A stretch of DNA of 40,482 nucleotides from Sedimentisphaerales bacterium. Its GTDB lineage: Bacteria > Planctomycetota > Phycisphaerae > Sedimentisphaerales > Anaerobacaceae. Both the position numbers and the translations under genes were made by a program. The notes under the pieces were generated by a model, which was not told the origin of the DNA, made no database searches, and saw only the letters and a list, made by a program, of their open reading frames with translations. The DNA lies in assembly GCA_028277585.1 (NCBI GenBank), contig JANQFY010000427.1:1-40482 (forward strand), in the 5' to 3' direction. How positions within the stretch are numbered: position 1 is the stretch's first letter; each line of letters starts with the position of its first letter. Positions 39,807-40,482 of this stretch are shown one piece after another.

Positions 39807-39892
39807 TGCAAAGATCAAGGATCAAAGATCAAAATTGCGGAATCGCCGTTCTACGGCGATGACTTCCTCAATTTTGATTTCTACAGTTTGCA
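39807..39892. repeat. Palindromic intergenic element (REP/MITE-like) between murB and ddl
   Basis: Nested inverted repeats: outer TGCAAA (39807-39812) / TTTGCA (39887-39892), middle ATCAAAATTG (39828-39837) / CAATTTTGAT (39869-39878), inner hairpin ATCGCCG-TTCTA-CGGCGAT (39842-39860). The left arm contains three tandem 7-mers GATCAAG/GATCAAA/GATCAAA (39813-39833). Part of the core, GGAATCGCC (39839-39847), also pairs with GGCGATTCC (39911-39919) directly before the ddl start codon. The AT-rich arms differ strongly from the GC-rich surroundings. It resembles dispersed intergenic palindromes of some planctomycetes (from memory, unverified). Confidence 0.7.
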
Positions 39893-39919: not shown

Positions 39920-40482
39920 ATGAAAGTGGCGGTGCTGCGCGGAGGCATAGGTTCGGAGCGTGAGGTCAGTCTTCAGAGCGGTCGTTGCGTGGCCCAGGCC
40001 CTGCGCGACGGCGGCGTCGAAGTGGTGGAATCGGACATTCGACCCGATGACCTGGCCATTCTCAATCGCACAGATATCGATGTCTTCTTCATCGCTCTGC
40101 ATGGTCCATTCGGGGAGGATGGCCAGCTCCAGAAGATCCTGGACGATCGGGGGTTGACCTATACCGGTTGCGGCGCCGAGGCCAGTCGGCTGGCTTTCGA
40201 CAAGATCGTGAGCAAGGAACGTTTCGCCGCGGCCGGTGTAGCGGTTGCAGCGACCATCGAGTTCGGCGAGCATTCCGATCCGGACGCTATCGCCGATCGA
40301 CTGCGTGAGTTCGGGGATCGTTTCGTCGTCAAGCCGGTTCGGCAGGGCAGCAGCGTGGGGGTCACGATCGTCGATGGGCCGGATGAAGCGGCTGCGCTGG
40401 CCCAGCGGATCTGGGGCGATTTCGGCGACTGCATGATCGAGCGCACCGACCGTGATCTCCCGCCCGGCGATGAACGGCTCGA
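39920..40482 (+). CDS. ddl: D-alanine--D-alanine ligase, 3'-truncated by the window edge
   Basis: Makes the D-Ala-D-Ala end of the murein peptide, using ATP. The frame starts at ATG 39920 with MKVAVLRGGIGSEREVSLQSG, the family N-terminus, and runs to the window end. Further signatures: FIALHGPFGEDGQLQ, the LTYTGCGAEASRLAFDK motif that precedes the ATP-grasp domain, and VVKPVRQGSSVGVTIV. After GDCMIE, however, the frame reads RTDRDLPPGDER instead of the expected FIxGREITVG; the expected sequence is present on the opposite strand of the same 36 bases (see the separate entry at 40437). The gene follows murB by 168 bp that hold a palindromic element, so it may be partly uncoupled from murB. Confidence 0.95.
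   Translation, partial: MKVAVLRGGIGSEREVSLQSGRCVAQALRDGGVEVVESDIRPDDLAILNRTDIDVFFIALHGPFGEDGQLQKILDDRGLTYTGCGAEASRLAFDKIVSKERFAAAGVAVAATIEFGEHSDPDAIADRLREFGDRFVVKPVRQGSSVGVTIVDGPDEAAALAQRIWGDFGDCMIERTDRDLPPGDERL
40437..40482. other. Inverted 36-bp segment inside ddl, flanked by TCGAG/CTCGA inverted repeats
   Basis: Bases 40442-40477 lie between TCGAG (40437-40441) and CTCGA (40478-40482). Read forward in the ddl frame they give RTDRDLPPGDER, which is unlike any Ddl. Their reverse complement, placed in the same frame, gives PFIAGREITVGA, which continues CMIE exactly as expected for the ATP-grasp domain (consensus near E-x-FIxGREITVGxL). The length is 12 codons, so no frameshift or stop arises in either orientation. 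It is either a real micro-inversion or an assembly fold-back at a contig end. Confidence 0.85.

Follow-up and report, generated by a model that had tools for sequence, protein, structure and literature searches.

A probable fold-back chimera behind an inverted ddl segment at a contig end of a Phycisphaerae-related bacterium

The DNA window analysed here is a single complete contig, C123, of 40,482 bases. Its final 46 bases are very probably (about 95%) a fold-back (snap-back) chimera, that is, an artefact and not chromosome sequence. They lie in ddl, and the last 36 in-frame bases are inverted. Three things are observed: the flip, its location at the end of the contig, and further fold-back ends elsewhere in this assembly, one of which is false. 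We infer both the shared route by which the C123 end arose and the enzymatic step.

C123 comes from a 7.17 Mb assembly of a Phycisphaerae-related bacterium (532 contigs, 80.27% complete). The nearest relatives among named genome records are Phycisphaerae MAGs. The 3' end of the contig carries murC, murB and then the start of ddl, which encodes D-alanine--D-alanine ligase. Only the 5' part of ddl is present (39920-40482, forward strand; Pfam PF01820, E 3.4e-18), ended by the contig end. The protein is ordinary up to residue 173, being 68-73% identical to Ddl of same-genus genomes; this upstream part of the gene and its neighbours murC and murB appear intact. Ddl matches are present in 58 of the 61 genomes searched, the own genome being counted among them. 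The murB-ddl intergenic region contains AAAGATCAAAATTGCGGAATCGCC (39824-39847), part of an interspersed repeat; with up to 3 mismatches allowed, the own genome has 21 such sites, compared with none for a reversed control pattern.

The remainder of ddl, or its true continuation, was searched for across the bin and was not found; the assembly thus truly breaks here, and C123 ends in an assembly gap. A second copy of the flipped segment was also sought in the bin and is absent, so the segment is single-copy. The gene which follows ddl on its 3' side in a same-genus genome was not found in the bin, in a search without a positive control. Another contig, C47 (L077), encodes an ATP-grasp protein that is about 334 aa long and distantly Ddl-like (PF07478, E 4.2e-28). 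It was considered as the missing half of ddl and rejected, because the protein is full-length and distinct; over the C-terminal half it is 28% identical to a same-genus Ddl.

The inverted segment spans 40442-40477. Read forward it translates as RTDRDLPPGDER; reverse-complemented it gives PFIAGREITVGA, the conserved Ddl motif, which fits in frame between ...FGDCMIE and L. With the segment flipped in place the Ddl protein continues as ...FGDCMIEPFIAGREITVGAL; relatives have, for example, FGDCMIEPFLRGQEITVGVL and FGDCMIERFIAGREITVGVL at the same place. Both translations were aligned with the Ddl segments of 44 distinct relatives, as the preliminary description had proposed. The forward peptide shares a mean of 0.25 of 12 residues with them (maximum 1; mean BLOSUM62 score -21) and is not found in any of these relatives. 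The reverse-complement peptide fits, with a mean of 7.6 of 12 identities (minimum 6; mean BLOSUM62 score +41). As a random control, about 60,000 segments of 36 nt were drawn from the genome, those containing stop codons being skipped. The best of them scored 18.8 against 39.3 for the flipped segment, and none of the roughly 60,000 reached the latter score; the inversion in the sequence text is therefore certain and not due to chance. That description had called it a codon-aligned 36-bp inversion whose forward translation is unlike Ddl, whose reverse complement restores the missing motif in the right frame and place, and whose frame stays open in either orientation. Sequence and frame are as it described, and the flip is clean.

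The segment is bounded by two short arms: TCGAGC (40437-40442, forward strand), the microhomology at which the sequence flips, and GCTCGA (40477-40482, forward strand), the final six bases of C123. The left arm is the exact reverse complement of 40477-40482; on the fold-back reading, the right arm would be the reverse complement of the left. The arms enclose a core of 34 nt, and the final base of the right arm is also that of the contig. They had been reported as TCGAG and CTCGA, bounding the segment exactly. The exact bounding holds, as it must for any inversion or fold-back at inverted repeats, but the arms are 6 bp long, not 5. They do not mark a special site, and this idea was rejected. 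An inverted match within 70 nt upstream exists at 2.0% of genome positions for 6 bp and at 7.1% for 5 bp. In a same-family genome (L013), whose ddl is intact and uninverted, 5-bp arms occur at this place too, since both genes use the codons ATC GAG ... CTC GAY.

A fold-back would produce this tip as follows. The end of a ddl fragment would anneal to its own or a sister strand over 6 nt of inverted microhomology (TCGAGC/GCTCGA), and would then be extended or ligated to give A-L-S-R-rc(A). This would link the sequence up to TCGAG with the following 36-40 nt taken from the opposite strand. Seen from the far end, the same molecule would be A-L-rc(S)-R-rc(A); the loop S may thus stand either way round and would here be flipped. 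Positions 40437-40482 would correspond to L-rc(S)-R, where L is TCGAGC and S is 34 nt. Once true coverage was exhausted, the assembler would have taken a chimeric read as the contig tip and stopped. Past 40482 the chimeric sequence would continue as TCATGCAGTCGCC, returning along the opposite strand. In the contig the junction does lie at an inverted microhomology (6 nt, and 4 nt in contig C11, described below), and what follows the junction is the neighbouring true sequence read from the opposite strand, as the Ddl motif restored against 44 relatives indicates. The returning arm on C123 is 6 nt long, after which the contig stops; a longer return, which would prove a fold-back, is not within the contig.

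Fold-back hairpins are found at other contig ends of the assembly. Eighty contigs were surveyed whole or in part, together with a few more, giving 145 unmasked contig ends, the two ends of the window included; an end was scored where it formed the outer end of an inverted repeat, and 3,000 interior cut points served as the control. End-anchored hairpins with arms of 40-104 nt occur at 4 of the 145 ends and at 0 of the 3,000 interior points, none of which exceeded an arm of 13 nt. With mismatches allowed, the loops are 19 nt at the start of C1 (L180, 1-227), 51 nt at the start of C11 (L179, 1-233), 5 nt at the end of C111 (L111, 4234-4318) and 40 nt at the start of C214 (L134, 1-126). Shorter end-anchored arms of 9-13 nt (the C91 type: L091, L114) were left out of the fold-back count, because arms of up to 13 nt also occur at the interior control points. 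In C1 an FtsX-like permease enters its own reverse complement after ...MVLRQG; in C11 the same happens to murD; in C111 the hairpin closes a long open frame. C111 and C214 break off 40 to 47 nt along the returning arm, which shows that contig tips of this assembly may end within such an arm.

Two further observations concern contigs of this assembly. FtsX-like permeases form a large family of paralogues: the query has 28 matches in the own genome (C386, C1, C475 and others), many of them in tandem on C386, and 4-26 in same-genus genomes. In C113 (L113, 3202 bases) the last 67 bases recur as a direct repeat close to the start of the contig, within a CheW-like frame, and the repeat adjoins a frame resembling a methyl-accepting chemotaxis protein; both frames are named from the look of the sequence only. 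This direct repeat is either in tandem or the product of a circular graph path.

The fold-back end of C11 is false. The N-terminal part of the C11 murD stands undisturbed at the end of contig C257 (...WPQIEWKLGGHDPEDFARADIIVANPAVPSD), and the presence of this unfolded murD is direct proof. The two contigs share an overlap of exactly 77 nt, and the hairpin arm of C11, in which 1-77 pairs with 157-233, has precisely this length. The agreement suggests a de Bruijn graph with k = 77. The two contigs diverge at GGAA, and its complement TTCC begins the other arm; the C11 fold-back thus occurred at a 4-nt inverted microhomology. murD was sought in the flanks of the ddl loci of relatives and was not there; it was then located by genome search. 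A fold-back error at the contig end had been named as the first thing to test for C123, and it is now strongly supported by the four other fold-back ends, one of them disproved by C257. Against it stand the long arms of those four ends and the exact stop of the tip at the right arm, which is unexplained.

A real in-frame inversion of 34-36 bp, fixed or switching, in an essential cell-wall gene of a Phycisphaerae bacterium is very unlikely. If fixed, it would be a true micro-inversion made by fold-back template switching in replication at a short inverted repeat, leaving ddl a pseudogene or mutant. A flip that is clean, in frame and open would suit this origin, and the Ddl-like ATP-grasp gene on C47 might too; however, the product of the latter has only its 28% identity to the C-terminal half of same-genus Ddl. 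Such an inversion would destroy a motif kept in 44 of 44 relatives compared, in a normally essential gene, and the intact-looking upstream ddl, murC and murB speak against it. It would also have to fall by chance within the final 46 bases of a contig, in an assembly with fold-back ends. This explanation, which the preliminary description had put forward, gained no positive support and is highly improbable.

The switchable segment it had also suggested, an intragenic inverton present both ways round in the population, fared no better and is extremely improbable. The frame is open in both orientations and inverted repeats flank the segment, but invertons have inverted repeats of 10-40 nt (PMC11892184) and only 6 nt are visible here, the right arm ending at the contig end. 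An inverton would also need a dedicated recombinase, as a rule encoded in the vicinity; a search of the bin for serine recombinases gave one, on a different contig, C108. If two states were mixed, a de Bruijn contig would be expected to break on reaching the left arm instead of continuing through the right one, and one orientation should inactivate Ddl. The position at a contig tip would also suit a pure graph or scaffolding error made by the assembler without a chimeric read. A graph step needs far more overlap than 6 nt, though (that of C11 and C257 is 77 nt), so at least one read with the junction is needed; an error of this kind has next to no likelihood.

As a fold-back chimera, the C123 tip would be no real feature but an ordinary type of error for this assembly, in which about 3% of the sampled contig ends bear a visible fold-back hairpin. 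Fold-back tips at metagenome contig ends mimic micro-inversions and invertons and call for caution; tips truncated like that of C123 are invisible without homologues. Trimming of contig ends ahead of inverton surveys would remove them.

Similar structures are known from sequencing libraries. In the PDSM model (PMC10908179), artefact reads show the stretch between short inverted repeats reverse-complemented relative to the reference; palindromic chimeras arise after whole-genome amplification (PMC6218980). C123 resembles these fold-back reads in its reverse-complemented inter-repeat sequence and in a junction within the repeat arms. It differs in that it is seen in an assembled contig tip, and that the returning arm is present for no more than 6 nt after the loop. 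The C1, C11, C111 and C214 ends are likewise anchored at the exact contig end; their loops of 5-51 nt bracket the 34 nt of C123, and the 4-nt microhomology of C11 is comparable to its 6 nt, whereas their returning arms are 40-104 nt long and that of C123 is 6 nt. With invertons, including intragenic invertible segments, C123 shares a flipped segment between inverted repeats inside a gene; unlike them, it has 6-bp arms in place of 10-40 nt, a 34-nt core, no recombinase known nearby and a single state seen.
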